A stretch of DNA of 40,033 nucleotides, from the NCBI GenBank assembly GCA_947258495.1, contig CAMYIN010000104.1, positions 1-40,033 on the forward strand, in the 5' to 3' direction. Source of the DNA: an uncultured Gammaproteobacteria bacterium. GTDB taxonomy: Bacteria > Pseudomonadota > Gammaproteobacteria > Arenicellales > JAANXG01. Each line of letters begins with the position of its first letter. Position 1 is the first letter of the stretch. The translations under genes were made by a program, and so were the position numbers. This document shows positions 1,518 through 7,330 of the stretch, piece after piece. The notes below the pieces were generated by a model. The model did no database searches. It saw only the letters and a list, made by a program, of their open reading frames with translations, and was not told the DNA's origin.

Positions 1518-3716
1518 ATGTTACCGAAAAATATCCTGCCGTCCGTCATCGTCCTCATTATCACATCGGGGTTAGCGGGGGCTGCCCACGGCGCCCCGGC
1601 GGAGCCGTTCCCGGAATTCGAGACCCAAGGCGGGCTCGGCATCATCGGTGTCCTGGTGCCCTGGGGCGAGGGCGCCACGGGCGGCGGCGTACCGGTGGCC
1701 TTGCTGGACACCGGCGTGAGGTTGGATCACGTCGACATCGGTCCGAATGTGCTCCCGGGCTTCGACTTCGTCAACGGCGACAGCACGGCCAACGACGACA
1801 GCCTTATCGGTCACGGCACTCAGGTCGCCGGCATCATCGCCGCACTGCGGAACGGTTTCGGCACCGTCGGCGTCGCCTACGACGCCCAAATCATCCCGGT
1901 GAAGGTGCAGGACCAGGAGCAGACACGAAGAAACGAAGACATGATCGCGGGCATCGATTTCGCCATTGCCAGCGGCGCGCGCATCATGAACCTGAGCATC
2001 CAGGGCGAGACCACGCCCGAGATAGAAACCGCCCTGATCAACGCGGCGGCCGCCGGGACCGTGGTCGTGTTTGCCGCCGGCAATCAAGGATTCGTCAGGC
2101 CGACCCGGTTTTCCAGGGTGGCGGCGCGTATGGGCGGTCACGGCATCATCGTCGGTTCGGTCGACGCCAATCTCAACCGGGCGTCGTTCAGCAACGAAGC
2201 CGGCGCATTCGCGGATCATTTCATGGTGGCGCCGGGGGTCACCATTGAAACCACGACCAACTCCAGCCCCAGCGCCCTGATCCGAATTACCGGCACCTCC
2301 GCGTCGACGCCGTTCGTATCCGGGGCGGCCGCCGTGTTGCTGTCGGCCTTCCCCAACCTGAGCGGCGCCCAGGTGGTGCAGATCCTGTTCGAGAGCGCCA
2401 CGGACCTGGGGGAACCGGGCGTGGACCCGGTCTACGGCCACGGCCTGCTGAACCTGGCTGCGGCCATGCAGCCCGCCGGGGACCTCTCGGTACCCGGCGG
2501 CGGCGGTTCCAGCTCCTCGTTCGCCGCGGGAGCACTGGTTCTGGGCGGCGCCCTCGCCTACGCCATCCAGCAGAAAGGCAAGAAACTGGAAAAGACCTTG
2601 ATCCTCGATCGGTACGATCGAGGCTACACCGCAAACCTTCCGGACTTGATCACGGTACGTGATGAACTACCCGGGCTGGACAGCCTGTTGGATTCCATGG
2701 ATGCGGAAACCGAATGGCTGTATCTGCCGCTGGCCGCGAACCACGCCGTGACCATGCGCTACGCGTCGTCGAGGCCGCGGGCCGGGAAGGCGAATTTGGA
2801 TTTTGATCCCTTCGTCCCGGAGCACGAGCAACTGCCGAACTGGGAGATGTCCCTGAGCGGCGACCTAGGGGAGCGTTGGGGCTACGCATTCGACCTGAAC
2901 ACCAGACCCGGGCGGGGTTTCGGCCTCGGCGGCGACGGTGAATCCTTGGGCGAGTACACCTTTCTCAGCGACGCCGCCTTCATGGCGCCCTATCTCGGTT
3001 TCGGTGAATCCGCGAACAGCGCCAATATCCGCTACGGATATTCACGCCATCTGGATTTCAAGCTGGGCTTCGTCGCCAGCGACGACGATACCGACGACTA
3101 CGGACTGAAAAGCGACGCCGTCGTCCTCGAAGGAAACTTTCATCCTCATGACAGGGCTTCGTTCGCCCTGCAATTCGGTCAACTCGATGAACACGGTAGC
3201 ATGTTCGGTGGTGCCGCCGCAGGACCTTTCAGCGTCGACACATCCGACACTATGTCTGTGGGCATCTCAGGGCGTGTGCTCCTCGGCAAAGACTTTGCGC
3301 TGTTCGGCAGCTATCACCGAGGCGCCACCCGCGTAGCCGACAGGGCCGGCAGCGTGATTCAAGACGTGGACACGCTGTACAGCGAGTCTTACGGAGTCGG
3401 TCTGTCGGCAAGATCCCTGTTTCGCCGCGGCGATCGTTTTGGTTTCGCCGTCTCGCGTCCGATGCGCGTCGCCGCCGGAAGCGCACGCCTAGACGTGCCG
3501 ACCTCCATCGATTCGGACGGACGCATCGTCAGCGAGAGTGAACGGATCGATCTATCACCTGCGGGACTCGAAACCGACGTCGAAGCCTATTACAAGATAA
3601 GGGCGCGAAAGGGAGCGGAATACGGGCTCCATCTGCTGTTTCGCGATAATCCGCATCACAATGCGGAATTGTCCAACGACGTGCGCATGTACATGACGTA
3701 CGTTTCGCGATTCTGA
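1518..3716 (+). CDS. Secreted S8 subtilisin-like protease with barrel-like C-terminal region
   Basis: This is a subtilase with the complete catalytic triad: Asp64 (LLDTGVRLDH), His99 (GHGTQVAG) and Ser261 (GTSASTPFVSG), plus oxyanion Asn189 (AAGNQG). A signal peptide occupies about residues 1-26, ending AHGA. After the protease domain (about 40-320) comes a Gly/Ser linker and a short hydrophobic segment (FAAGALVLGGALAYA). Then follow about 370 residues of alternating polar/apolar strands ending YVSRF. A terminal Phe is typical of outer-membrane barrels assembled by BAM, so an autotransporter-like, surface-anchored or self-secreting protease is inferred, not shown. ATG 1518 was chosen over GTG 1509 because GGGAG at 1505-1509 lies 8 nt upstream of it. 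Length is 732 aa. Confidence 0.88.
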   Translation: MLPKNILPSVIVLIITSGLAGAAHGAPAEPFPEFETQGGLGIIGVLVPWGEGATGGGVPVALLDTGVRLDHVDIGPNVLPGFDFVNGDSTANDDSLIGHGTQVAGIIAALRNGFGTVGVAYDAQIIPVKVQDQEQTRRNEDMIAGIDFAIASGARIMNLSIQGETTPEIETALINAAAAGTVVVFAAGNQGFVRPTRFSRVAARMGGHGIIVGSVDANLNRASFSNEAGAFADHFMVAPGVTIETTTNSSPSALIRITGTSASTPFVSGAAAVLLSAFPNLSGAQVVQILFESATDLGEPGVDPVYGHGLLNLAAAMQPAGDLSVPGGGGSSSSFAAGALVLGGALAYAIQQKGKKLEKTLILDRYDRGYTANLPDLITVRDELPGLDSLLDSMDAETEWLYLPLAANHAVTMRYASSRPRAGKANLDFDPFVPEHEQLPNWEMSLSGDLGERWGYAFDLNTRPGRGFGLGGDGESLGEYTFLSDAAFMAPYLGFGESANSANIRYGYSRHLDFKLGFVASDDDTDDYGLKSDAVVLEGNFHPHDRASFALQFGQLDEHGSMFGGAAAGPFSVDTSDTMSVGISGRVLLGKDFALFGSYHRGATRVADRAGSVIQDVDTLYSESYGVGLSARSLFRRGDRFGFAVSRPMRVAAGSARLDVPTSIDSDGRIVSESERIDLSPAGLETDVEAYYKIRARKGAEYGLHLLFRDNPHHNAELSNDVRMYMTYVSRF

Positions 3717-3739: not shown

Positions 3740-4477
3740 ATGCACTCCGAACAACTCGCCGCACAAATAGAACCCTTCGATTCCTTCTGGGAGGCGCCCA
3801 GCGATATCGAAAAGGGTTATCGCACGTTCTATGAGTTTTACAAGCACAACTATTTGAAGCACCTTCCCGGGGATCGAGATGCACGCATACTCGCGGTCAG
3901 CTGCGGGCCTGGATATTTCCTCAATCTCCTGACGTCCGAAGGATACCGTAATGTCTTCGGGATCGACTCCGACGCGGGAAAGATCGAACTCGCCAAAAAC
4001 AGGAATCTCTCCTGCGAACAGCAGCGTGCGTTCGAGTACCTGGAAACCAGGACGGACGAGTTCGACGTCATATTCTGCGAGCAGGAAATCAATCATCTCA
4101 CCAAAAAAGAGATCATCGAATTTCTGCGACTCTGCCATCGGAGTCTACGGCCGGGCGGTTCGATCATCGTGCATGCGCTGAATGGCGCGAATCCGATCAC
4201 CGGCGCCGAAGCGTTGGCTCAGAATTTCGATCATTACAACACCTTTACCGAATATACGATGCGTCAGGTGCTCGAACACAGCGGTTTCGAAAACGTAAAA
4301 GTGTTTCCGCTCAATCTCTACGTGTTTTTCAAGAACCCTTTGAACTACGTACTTATCGCCCTTTCCACGCTCTACACGCTGTTTTTCCGCGCTAGCTTCA
4401 TCCTCTACGGCAAATCCAACAAGCTTTTCACCAAGAAGATCGGCGCCGCGGCCGTAAAACCGATTTCCGAAGGCTAG
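3740..4477 (+). CDS. Class I SAM-dependent methyltransferase
   Basis: A Rossmann-type methyltransferase: motif I is VSCGPGYF (53-60), the acidic residue ending strand 2 is Asp76 (GIDSD), and the later strand is FDVIFCEQ (108-115) with LRPGGSIIVHAL (136-147). The Asp/Glu usual at the start of motif I is Ser56 here. A hydrophobic stretch at about residues 201-223 (NYVLIALSTLYTLFF) could anchor the protein to the membrane, which is uncommon for this fold. Such enzymes often methylate sugars or lipid-linked intermediates in glycan clusters, and this one converges on such a cluster. The substrate cannot be read from the sequence. It begins 23 nt after the protease stop without an obvious ribosome binding site. 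Confidence 0.82.
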   Translation: MHSEQLAAQIEPFDSFWEAPSDIEKGYRTFYEFYKHNYLKHLPGDRDARILAVSCGPGYFLNLLTSEGYRNVFGIDSDAGKIELAKNRNLSCEQQRAFEYLETRTDEFDVIFCEQEINHLTKKEIIEFLRLCHRSLRPGGSIIVHALNGANPITGAEALAQNFDHYNTFTEYTMRQVLEHSGFENVKVFPLNLYVFFKNPLNYVLIALSTLYTLFFRASFILYGKSNKLFTKKIGAAAVKPISEG

Positions 4478-4526
4478 GCGAGCATCCACAAACAGCGGGC
4501 GGTCCCGCCCCCGTGCGGTGTTGCCG

Positions 4527-4540
4527 AGCCCGATCGGGCT
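4527..4540. terminator. Palindrome between convergent genes, possible bidirectional terminator
   Basis: A perfect 14-nt palindrome (AGCCCGATCGGGCT) lies in the 90-nt gap between the convergent methyltransferase gene and the end of the glycan cluster. A second GC-rich hairpin (GGGCG, four-base loop, CGCCC) is at 4497-4510. Neither has a T-tract, so this is only terminator-like. Confidence 0.35.
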
Positions 4541-4567
4541 GACCCGCGAACCGCCGGCCGCTTGGGA

Positions 4568-7318
4568 TCAATCCGTCACCGGAACCGCGGCATCGGACAC
4601 CAGCCGGAATCCGGAAATGCGCATCGCCGCGGCGCGCCTGTCCCGGCCTACGACGCGACGCACGACGCGATCCTCAATCGCCTCCACCGCGGTCCCGGGT
4701 TTCGCGCCTTTGACCCCTACGATGACGTGCGACGCGTACGTGTCGCGCTTTCTCGGATCTTGCGTCGCGCCGATCGACCGGAACTCGTTGAAGACCCCGT
4801 CCGACACGTGTATACCGCCGACGCGATTCAGCGCCACGGCGACTATGGATCCTTGGGGTATTCGTGCAAAAAACGCGATCAGGCGTTCATGTTCCACCGC
4901 CTCCTTCCCCACGTCGAACCCGCTGCGGTCGATGACGGCGCCTTTGACCGGGTCCATGGCGACCACGCTGTATCCCCTGTGTCGCGGAAGTTCCAGGTTC
5001 GAACCGTTTACCCAGATCGCGGCGGTGCTGCCGTAGGGCTTGCCGGCGCTCGTAACGACGATATCCACGGGCGAATTGGTCCCGGTGTTGCCGATCCGGT
5101 AGCGGCGATCATTGACGGTGTCCACCGTAATCCGGTAACCGTGTTCGAGCGTGAGTTCGTTCGGCCGGACGCGATAATAAGGGCGGGTCAGGTCGATGCG
5201 GCGTTCCGCGTCGCCGCTCGTGTTCTCGATACGTTGCAACAGCCTGCCGTTGAATTTCACGTCGATGAAGTCGCGTTTCCCGTCGTCGTCGGAGACCGTA
5301 AGGGAAAGCGCTGCACGCGGGCGTTTCTCGATCCGGTCGGTGGACAGCATGCGCGTCCAAGTCCAGTTTCTTTCCGACCTCGGTTCCAACTCGAATACGA
5401 TGACGTCATCGAATTCTCCCACCGTCTTCAATCCTGTTGACGGGCTGTTCTTGAATTCGATCCAGCTTCGCCTTTCCTCCGGGTCGCGGAACCAGTTCAA
5501 ATGAATGAGCAGGTAGCGCAGCTCGTGCACCGACCGCAGCATTTCGACCTTTCCGGTGCGCGGCAAAGCCGCCAGCGAGTAGGCCACGTCCGCCGAAAAC
5601 GGCGGATAAAAACCGCTGACGCCGTTCACCAACGGCTTTCCGTGGTAGAGGGACCAGAACACGTAGGTGGAATCGATCGATTCGTGCTTGGTAGGGAACT
5701 CCATGATTGCGAAGTCGTCGCGTTGCGACGCGAGCCATCGATAAACCGGGGGCGGATCGTTCCAGGAGACTTCCTGATACGTGAGAGGCGCCGGCAGATA
5801 TTCAATGAGCGCCGCCAGGGGTGCGGCGTAGACCAGGTAGCGCCAACGTCCCCGGTAACGCAGCTTGTTCTCCAGAAACACGAGTCCGAAGCCGGCGAGC
5901 AATCCAAGCAGGAACAAGGCCAGAAAAGCAAGCCGAAGTGAAATTCGTATCGCCGAAAACCCGGGGAAGAATTCGTAGACGTAGCGGTAGACGCCCGCCC
6001 CCACCGGTTGACTCTTATAGTGCATCACCGGGCCGAGCGTCAGCAGCATGCACAAGAGGGCCAAAACGCCCAGCAACAGCGGCCAGTCCGCAGCGCCGAG
6101 GACCCGATCCCGTACGTTGTCGCGTCGCCACAGGTATCCCTTGAACAACATCGCCGAGACACCCGCGGCGAGCAGCACGAATACGAGATAGCGCACCGTC
6201 GCGGCGCGCCCGAGCGACTCCGTGGACGACGCGCCCGTATCGGGACTGATCAGGAGATAGACCATGACGATGAACACCGCGAAAGCGAACCAGGCCGTCA
6301 ACCGCAATACCAGGCGGTCGAAGTGCAAGGGTATCGTGTTCCGTCCCCGCGTCGACAGGAACAGCGCAATGGTCGACAGTGCGTAGACGGTGAAGCCGGG
6401 AAACAGGCCGGGGTACCGGGTCGAATCGGCAAGTCGATAAAAAAGGTGTTCCTTTCCCGCATCGAAGAACGAGAGCATGTCGCCGCGAAAATGATTGACA
6501 TCGTCGAGGGTACGCTCGAAGCCGAGTTCTCGGGCGGCCTGCAGGTACGGCCACGCCACCGGAAGTACCGCAAGGACAAAAACCACGGCGCTCGCAGCGC
6601 CCATCAACAGGGTGCGTACTCCCCAGCCGCGGGGTCGGAGCGCATGAAAACCCAATGCTAGCAGAAGCAGCAACAGCGCGAGGGGAATGCCTCCGTACCA
6701 GATGGTTATCGCCTGCAGCCACAGCCACAACAGCGCCATAGACAAATACCGGAGTTTTTGTTTCTCCAAAAAACAGACAAAAGCCAGGAACGCCAGCGGC
6801 ACGGCAAAAGACAGGTGTATGTTCAGAAAATTGTAATAACCCGTTCTGAATGGAGATACGCAGAAGACGATACCCGCCAGGAGGCCGGCCGCTTCACTGC
6901 CCGTGATACGGTGTGTTGCGTAATACGCCGACCAACCACAGAGAGCCTGAAACAGCAGCAGCGTGACGTTGTAGGCCAGGATCGGATTCTCACTGACTGC
7001 GAGAACGGGTGCGCCCACCAGTGCCGCCGGAACCAGCAGCGGTTCCGAAAATGCGAGGGTATTGCCGTAGGGATAGAAAATGTTGGTGTCGAAAAGCTGC
7101 AGCGGATTGCTGAACAGGGTTTTAGCAACCCATGCCAGCATCCAGGTAAAGAGGTAGGGATCGTTGTAGCCTCGCAGGTAGCGATCGAGGTGCAGGACCA
7201 GTGGAAACGTATAACCGCAAACGATGAGCAGAAACAGGAGATATACCGACGCAAGGCGCAGCGGTGAACGCGTCGTCGACCTCGCCGCAGGCCACACGTT
7301 ATCGTTCCACAGCGTCAT
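4568..7318 (-). CDS. Large YfhO/GT-C-like membrane glycosyltransferase-type protein
   Basis: About 916 aa. The N-terminal half has roughly 10-12 membrane segments. It is followed by a large, probably periplasmic, C-terminal domain from about residue 510. The first loop contains an acidic patch (GYNDPYLFTWMLAW). It is followed by NIFYPYGNTLAFSE (79-92) and FCVSPFR (154-160), which recur in the protein encoded at 8210-10483; the two are paralogues. The C-terminal domain shares LVNGVSGFYPPFSAD with that paralogue. The layout fits YfhO-like or GT-C enzymes that transfer sugars from polyprenyl-phosphate donors outside the cytoplasm; no activity is proven. ATG 7318 is used, but GTG 7330, abutting the upstream stop, is possible. 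This is the last gene of the minus-strand cluster. Confidence 0.78.
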   Translation of the reverse strand: MTLWNDNVWPAARSTTRSPLRLASVYLLFLLIVCGYTFPLVLHLDRYLRGYNDPYLFTWMLAWVAKTLFSNPLQLFDTNIFYPYGNTLAFSEPLLVPAALVGAPVLAVSENPILAYNVTLLLFQALCGWSAYYATHRITGSEAAGLLAGIVFCVSPFRTGYYNFLNIHLSFAVPLAFLAFVCFLEKQKLRYLSMALLWLWLQAITIWYGGIPLALLLLLLALGFHALRPRGWGVRTLLMGAASAVVFVLAVLPVAWPYLQAARELGFERTLDDVNHFRGDMLSFFDAGKEHLFYRLADSTRYPGLFPGFTVYALSTIALFLSTRGRNTIPLHFDRLVLRLTAWFAFAVFIVMVYLLISPDTGASSTESLGRAATVRYLVFVLLAAGVSAMLFKGYLWRRDNVRDRVLGAADWPLLLGVLALLCMLLTLGPVMHYKSQPVGAGVYRYVYEFFPGFSAIRISLRLAFLALFLLGLLAGFGLVFLENKLRYRGRWRYLVYAAPLAALIEYLPAPLTYQEVSWNDPPPVYRWLASQRDDFAIMEFPTKHESIDSTYVFWSLYHGKPLVNGVSGFYPPFSADVAYSLAALPRTGKVEMLRSVHELRYLLIHLNWFRDPEERRSWIEFKNSPSTGLKTVGEFDDVIVFELEPRSERNWTWTRMLSTDRIEKRPRAALSLTVSDDDGKRDFIDVKFNGRLLQRIENTSGDAERRIDLTRPYYRVRPNELTLEHGYRITVDTVNDRRYRIGNTGTNSPVDIVVTSAGKPYGSTAAIWVNGSNLELPRHRGYSVVAMDPVKGAVIDRSGFDVGKEAVEHERLIAFFARIPQGSIVAVALNRVGGIHVSDGVFNEFRSIGATQDPRKRDTYASHVIVGVKGAKPGTAVEAIEDRVVRRVVGRDRRAAAMRISGFRLVSDAAVPVTD

Positions 7319-7330
7319 CGAAAAGACCAC

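Follow-up and report, generated by a model that had tools for sequence, protein, structure and literature searches.

A subtilase joined to a predicted porin-like outer-membrane barrel in an uncultured gammaproteobacterium

A subtilase gene in an uncultured gammaproteobacterium of the order Arenicellales raises the question of whether its product anchors itself in the outer membrane and, if so, by which type of barrel and on which side of the membrane the protease resides. The gene was analyzed within a window of 40,033 nucleotides that comprises one entire contig (CAMYIN010000104.1, here C104) of assembly GCA_947258495.1. The assembly totals 3.18 Mb in 217 contigs and is ~74% complete by estimate. 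The sequence GGGAG is located immediately 5′ of the ATG of the gene, which specifies a protein of 732 residues. The features of the gene and protein are collected in Table 1. The elements named in the original prediction, namely the S8 domain, a Gly/Ser linker, a hydrophobic helix, a strand-rich C-terminal part and a YVSRF end, all were recovered at the positions proposed for them.

Table 1. Features of the S8-barrel gene and its product (positions within the window; residues of the 732-residue protein).
Feature	Position	Strand	Basis
Whole gene, S8 protease plus predicted C-terminal barrel domain, 732 aa	1518..3716	+	ATG to TGA
Probable Sec signal peptide, ~residues 1-26, cleavage near AHG/A	1518..1595	+	Reading of the sequence
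Peptidase S8 catalytic domain, residues 55-309	1680..2444	+	PF00082 and structural match to subtilisins
Catalytic Asp64	1707..1709	+	Invariant in 37/37 aligned sequences
Catalytic His99	1812..1814	+	Invariant in 37/37 aligned sequences
Oxyanion Asn189	2082..2084	+	Asn in 34/37, Asp/Glu in 3
Catalytic Ser261 (GTSAST)	2298..2300	+	Invariant in 37/37 aligned sequences
Gly/Ser linker, residues 326-334	2493..2519	+	Sequence; many relatives also Gly/Ser-rich there
Hydrophobic stretch rich in Ala and Gly, residues 335-352, predicted to be helical	2520..2573	+	Sequence and AlphaFold2
Conserved pre-barrel motif LEKTLILDRYDRGYTANL, residues 357-374	2586..2639	+	Alignment of 37 sequences
Predicted outer-membrane beta-barrel, residues 401-732, YVSRF end	2718..3713	+	AlphaFold2, porin matches, strand connections
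Conserved segment EHGSMFGGAAAGPFSVD, residues 558-574, largely a single long barrel connection	3189..3239	+	Alignment, strand connections

The N-terminal half of the protein was assessed by a Pfam scan and by alignment of the window protein with 36 full-length relatives (set A1, 37 sequences), from which L007, a near-duplicate as judged by eye, and the fragment L028 were left out. Peptidase_S8 (PF00082) was the single domain matched in the 732-residue protein (residues 55-309, E 1.2e-45) and the match spans the entire profile (positions 1-288 of 288). The Asp/His/Ser triad is invariant in all 37 sequences, and the domain in the full-length structural model resembles subtilisins with a Z-score of about 33. 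Thus, the protein is a member of the S8 family with a full-length domain and triad, and the claim of a complete catalytic domain is borne out. The probable signal peptide has ILPSVIVLIITSGLAGAAH as its hydrophobic core. In three relatives of one lineage (L026, L029 and L036) the column that corresponds to Asn189 of the window protein is occupied by Asp or Glu while the triad is kept; because the oxyanion Asn is replaced, the protease of these three proteins may be weak or dead.

The C-terminal region was modeled with AlphaFold2 both within the full protein (26 sequences; pLDDT 77.0, pTM 0.68) and alone (27 sequences; mean pLDDT 77.3, pTM 0.78). The isolated part was strand-rich and 17 strand segments from residue 401 onward were nearly equal in the two models, which are not independent as their alignments are largely shared. 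When the isolated domain was compared with the PDB by Foldseek, P. putida OprB ranked first (E 2.5e-5) and the remaining 49 of the best 50 matches listed consisted almost entirely of porins and other barrels of the outer membrane, with TM-scores that were modest at about 0.40. VIA-align gave V. cholerae OmpT a Z-score of 18.4 (262 residues, 3.4 Å), followed by OprO (18.2), OprP (18.1) and OprB (17.7). The best 50 VIA-align matches listed also were nearly all porins and the last residue of the model was aligned in every one; no autotransporter barrel was among these 50, although one may lie beyond them. Fold searches with the full-length model were filled by subtilisins. The models therefore point to a barrel-type fold that matches porins and not to a soluble or repeat fold, as had been anticipated from the sequence. 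As the C-terminal region is predicted to adopt an outer-membrane barrel fold, the protein is best interpreted as an outer-membrane protease that anchors itself.

Sequence profiles were in agreement among the relatives. The OprB family (PF04966) was the main Pfam match in this group, with matches at E 1 or better in 13 of the 37 aligned sequences (best E 4.1e-9). When nine relatives were scanned singly, six matched toward the C-terminal end of the profile, the matches stopping at positions 344-370 of 372, and two of the nine exceeded the cut-off of 22.9 bits (L060, 38.0 bits; L073, 29.6 bits). These OprB matches are sequence-level support that is independent of the structural model. The window protein itself has no PF04966 match and is not an OprB family member by the curated cut-off. 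Its residues 335-732 alone gave no Pfam or NCBIfam match even at E 1, and a profile search of the C-terminal domain against PDB sequences produced one chance match (E 1.8). Family-averaged hydropathy alternation in 10-residue windows had a mean of 1.67 in the C-terminal domain compared to 0.87 in the S8 domain of these sequences. The strand-like periodicity that had been perceived in this region thus is genuine for the domain overall, but is weaker for individual strands: 5 of the 17 predicted strands alternated at p < 0.05 versus shuffles and a few showed no alternation. The terminal Phe to which the original prediction drew attention is present in the window protein, but is shared by 25 of the 37 aligned sequences and is not universal.

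Among 145 genomes drawn as relatives, 80 contained relatives of residues 322-732; the figure for the class was 13 of 274 genomes and, by profile search, that for the phylum was 30 of 398, the genome of origin being counted in each case. The phylum search gave 35 matches outside the window, for 29 of which a locus was extracted. A DNA-pattern scan of named genomes yielded 28 loci, all titled metagenome-assembled and mostly from Gammaproteobacteria, including Arenicellales and Arenicella. The S8 domain was present in 37/37 sequences of set A1 and in 26/29 of the wider-family proteins extracted; the C-terminal domain therefore almost always accompanies a subtilase. The three exceptions were L095, which was read in the wrong frame, L115 (394 residues) and L116 (694 residues as extracted, cut at the locus edge). 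L095 was left out of set A9, and L115 and L116 were left out of the tree described below, as was L042, a row of A2 without the motif pattern. The fragments L054 and L066, the latter used in A8, and L065, which has a broken frame, were left out of A6. In L065 (positions 4137-5426) the S8-barrel frame is interrupted in the assembly, with a 430-residue frame left before the stop. A scan of contigs with the single protein as query found no relative, and the matches listed in a plasmid search covered at most about 40% of the query, all within the S8 part.

The number of strands in the predicted barrel was estimated from the connections between them in the 37 sequences. Shorter connections (2, 3, 4, 2, 4, 7 and, last, 4 residues) alternate with longer ones (24, 36, 10, 15, 12 and, last, 10 residues), one of which accounts for most of the conserved stretch at residues 558-574 with the family consensus ExGSLFGGSSGGxFSVD. 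The alternation breaks at residues 640-695, and the strand count is ambiguous because this segment is readable as one long hairpin or two. A single hairpin with a bulge at the invariant Gly654 would give 14 full strands plus the short strand 401-406, and two hairpins would give 16 plus the same short strand. Many VIA-align alignments start ~20-55 residues into the target, including those with the OmpF mutants 1hxt, 1hxx and 1gfo (29-37), and three start later (89, 142 and 146), a pattern that would arise if the first strand of the target were left unpaired. The count of 14 therefore would fit better than 16, provided that the porin strand positions and the numbering used are correct. A prediction of a closed barrel, of 12 strands or another number, had been named as support for the original proposal; a barrel-type fold is predicted, with strands that appear to fit 14, perhaps 16, rather than 12.

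The C-terminus is periplasmic in known outer-membrane barrels. If this applies here, the two-residue turn at 407-408 is periplasmic and residues 401-406 are a descending strand, so that the helix and pre-barrel motif would reach this strand through the lumen or from the exterior, which is the autotransporter arrangement. Given the barrel, this strand parity makes display of the protease on the surface reasonably probable. Solved porins have both termini in the periplasm, and their N-terminal domains are periplasmic also, for example, the attachment domain of OmpM1. In a topology of this type the S8 domain would be a periplasmic protease tethered beneath a porin-like barrel, a possible but less probable arrangement that draws on the porins being the best structural matches, and on the roughly 80 residues from S8 to barrel, which need not thread the pore. 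Moreover, the pre-barrel motif was modeled more confidently with S8 present: the block mean for residues 361-370 was 88 in the full-length model versus 73-76 in the isolated domain, so that the motif may pack on S8 rather than in the lumen. However, the alternation of connections would make 401-406 descending, and a loose tether would not need the Asp364 and Arg368 residues of the motif to be invariant, as they are in 37/37 sequences. In addition, no I9 propeptide family was among the Pfam matches of the 37 sequences, and an unrestrained periplasmic subtilase therefore would be risky. A charge swap between motif position 368 and barrel position 558 also was considered, as both sites seem to be altered in L039 and L048, two proteins of a single genome, and was dropped as several members have Ala at 368 yet retain Glu at 558 by eye.

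The protein has the part order of the subtilisin-group autotransporters of type Va (NalP, SphB1, EprS and fusolisin; Group 15), with a probable signal peptide, S8 domain, predicted linker helix and predicted C-terminal outer-membrane barrel in one polypeptide, and the way of working likely is the same. The NCBIfam EprS model matches 13 of the 37 sequences and fusolisin 12; the window protein matches EprS only, far below the cut-off and within the protease part. That it is a classical autotransporter of the NalP/SphB1/EprS kind with a diverged PF03797 barrel nevertheless is improbable. PF03797 was absent from the sets of 37, 9, 27 (E 1) and 28 (E 0.1) proteins scanned, which partly overlap, and a comparison by hhalign of the family profile with PF03797 barrels of related genomes gave a probability of 6.7%, compared to 99.9% over 192 columns against more distant S8 proteins (A2). 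The distance from motif to C-terminus is 363-379 residues in the 37 sequences, and the barrel, unrelated to PF03797 by these profile tests, appears to fit 14-16 strands rather than 12. In Group 15 proteins a beta-helix of ~200 residues is thought to follow the protease, according to passages of PMC9289746; there is no space for this element in the window protein, in which only about 80 residues separate the end of S8 (about 322) from the first strand (401). The term autotransporter-like consequently is apt for the predicted type of outer-membrane barrel, but not as a statement of classical kinship, the best folds being porins. A search of 60 genomes detected PF03797 in 21, with one clear copy in the genome of origin (L078; contig C204, 168.6 bits, 509-residue frame). 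None was found in the genomes of 12 other members of the same family (G001-G012), each of which does match the S8-barrel C-terminal domain.

The linker of the window protein contains GGGGSSSS (residues 327-334) followed by the hydrophobic stretch FAAGALVLGGALAYAI (residues 335-350). The helix was placed at 344-357 in the full-length model and at 338-353 in the isolated domain with low to middling confidence; block means for residues 331-360 of the full-length model were 43, 58 and 70. A hydrophobic helix between the domains had been regarded as unusual for classical autotransporters. The linker forms a pore-spanning helix in the latter, in the relevant passages of PMC9289746, and so the helix itself is not exceptional, but its hydrophobic composition is odd and is largely a trait of one clade. 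The best 19-residue hydropathy of the helix region had a mean of 1.90 within set A1 (n = 37) versus a median of 0.92 in 28 proteins outside the set, in which the segment often holds FGDA or MGDA. For 70 C-terminal domains a tree was constructed by a quick method from the motif to the end with the helix left out; in this tree the 37 rows of A1 formed one fully supported group, and hydropathy was ≥1.5 in 35 of these rows compared to 1 of 33 outside. The label 'hydrophobic' requires four changes on this tree; the helix thus is clustered without a clean single gain, and its share in the clade is somewhat biased because A1 was chosen by similarity to a helix-containing query. As the barrel and a looser DxYxRxY motif persist in relatives that lack the hydrophobic helix, the latter appears to be the elaboration of one clade and probably is no obligatory anchor.

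A segment of this composition could in principle halt transfer at the inner membrane, which is a point against an outer-membrane location. An inner-membrane stop-transfer role was examined and rejected as the main reading: a crude sum of a membrane-insertion scale over 19 residues was <0 in just 3 of the 37 sequences, 2 of the 37 were below a hydropathy of 1.5 in the helix region, and L005, L006 and L074 have charged residues within the helix.

The Gly/Ser stretch, hydrophobic helix and basic residues are shared with GlyGly-CTERM substrates of rhombosortases, and this tripartite pattern is evident in many relatives. If the Gly/Ser-hydrophobic-Lys segment were an internal GlyGly-CTERM-like signal, cutting by a rhomboid would release or anchor the protease apart from the barrel. 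In five loci (L063, L064, L067, L069 and L070) a rhomboid-like gene, at about 2.8-3.5 kb, precedes the S8-barrel gene in the same orientation, with its identity backed by Pfam in L063 only (PF01694, E 3.5e-15), but the five loci have one gene block in common. The same-genus genome G001 has a rhombosortase above the cut-off (116 bits), on a different contig from its S8 gene (L063). As 14/14 control genomes also match below the cut-off, only matches above it were counted; these occurred in 7 of 109 genomes searched and none was found in the genome of origin at its ~74% completeness. Furthermore, GlyGly-CTERM is defined as located at the protein C-terminus, in the passages available from PMC3237569, whereas the segment here is internal with about 380 residues after it, and TIGR03501 was not among the NCBIfam matches of the 37 aligned sequences. 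The likeness is superficial by the tests made, and an internal GlyGly-CTERM was rejected as very improbable.

A comparison of the loci of the window gene and its relatives revealed no gene partner that is conserved across lineages. Genes of glycan-synthesis type recur nearby: a methyltransferase gene follows both the window gene and L058, a GT2 enzyme is encoded near L058, a PMT_2 match below the cut-off is located in L060, the block of L063 includes a carbamoyltransferase, and L062, L066, L068 and L072 have glycosyltransferase-like neighbors by eye. Neighbors of other relatives include DsbB, NUDIX, ThiF and M1 or M16 genes, and cysS by eye. In the window, the S8-barrel gene is followed, at 3740-7330, by the methyltransferase gene and by an opposite-strand gene for a 920-residue protein with an ILEI domain, and a same-strand gene for a PD40 propeller-type protein (70-1176, E 1.7e-13) is located about 340 bases upstream of the S8 gene. 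A gene for a protein of ~510 residues is directly upstream of the S8-barrel gene in L068 (2317-3861) and L072 (2426-3952), and had no Pfam match at E 0.01.

Overall, the protein is best viewed as an outer-membrane-anchored, autotransporter-like subtilase, to which we assign a probability of roughly 0.55. The modest TM-scores (~0.40), the differing positions of the helix in the two models, the alternation in 5 of 17 strands and the lack of a Pfam match to the domain in the window protein count against this reading. In the proposed mechanism, the S8-barrel protein would be exported by the Sec pathway, after which its C-terminal ~330 residues would form a porin-like barrel, presumably with the help of the BAM complex; the number of strands would be about 14, possibly 16. 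Inside this barrel, which they may plug, the linker helix and conserved DxYxRxY motif would descend as far as the periplasmic turn that precedes the first full strand, leaving the S8 protease on the cell surface. The displayed protease would cleave proteins of the surface or the environment, and might also cut its own linker.

The outer-membrane-anchored subtilase would share its predicted barrel fold with the porins OprB (PF04966), OprO/OprP and V. cholerae OmpT, as reflected in the matches to the C-terminal part of the OprB profile in 13/37 sequences, but the family adds an N-terminal S8 domain and seems to lack a counterpart of the first porin strand or strands. Type Vd autotransporters, such as the patatin-like PlpD, are described, in part in passages of PMC9289746, as likewise displaying an enzyme by a barrel of >12 strands; in contrast, neither patatin nor POTRA domains were among the Pfam matches of the window family. 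Each part of the protein thus is of a known kind, and the combination of S8 with a porin-like barrel other than PF03797 apparently is unnamed: none of the titles and abstract openings searched, which lie mostly outside subscription journals, describes an S8 protease with a porin-like barrel. Tentatively, the family might constitute a distinct subtype of self-displaying protease, widespread in Pseudomonadota, with a porin-derived translocator of 14-16 strands that is unrelated to known type V barrels and in which a conserved DxYGRxY plug in the lumen replaces the beta-helix stalk and pore helix of classical autotransporters.

If the favored reading is correct, environmental proteobacteria possess a sizeable family of surface proteases that the autotransporter model of Pfam misses, and self-display extends beyond the known type V barrels. 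The family then would be a test case for how an enzyme domain is held or passed by a porin-like barrel, which ordinarily is an open channel. The shift by clade from a polar to a hydrophobic linker helix also provides a natural series on the limit of hydrophobicity for passage of outer-membrane proteins through Sec.
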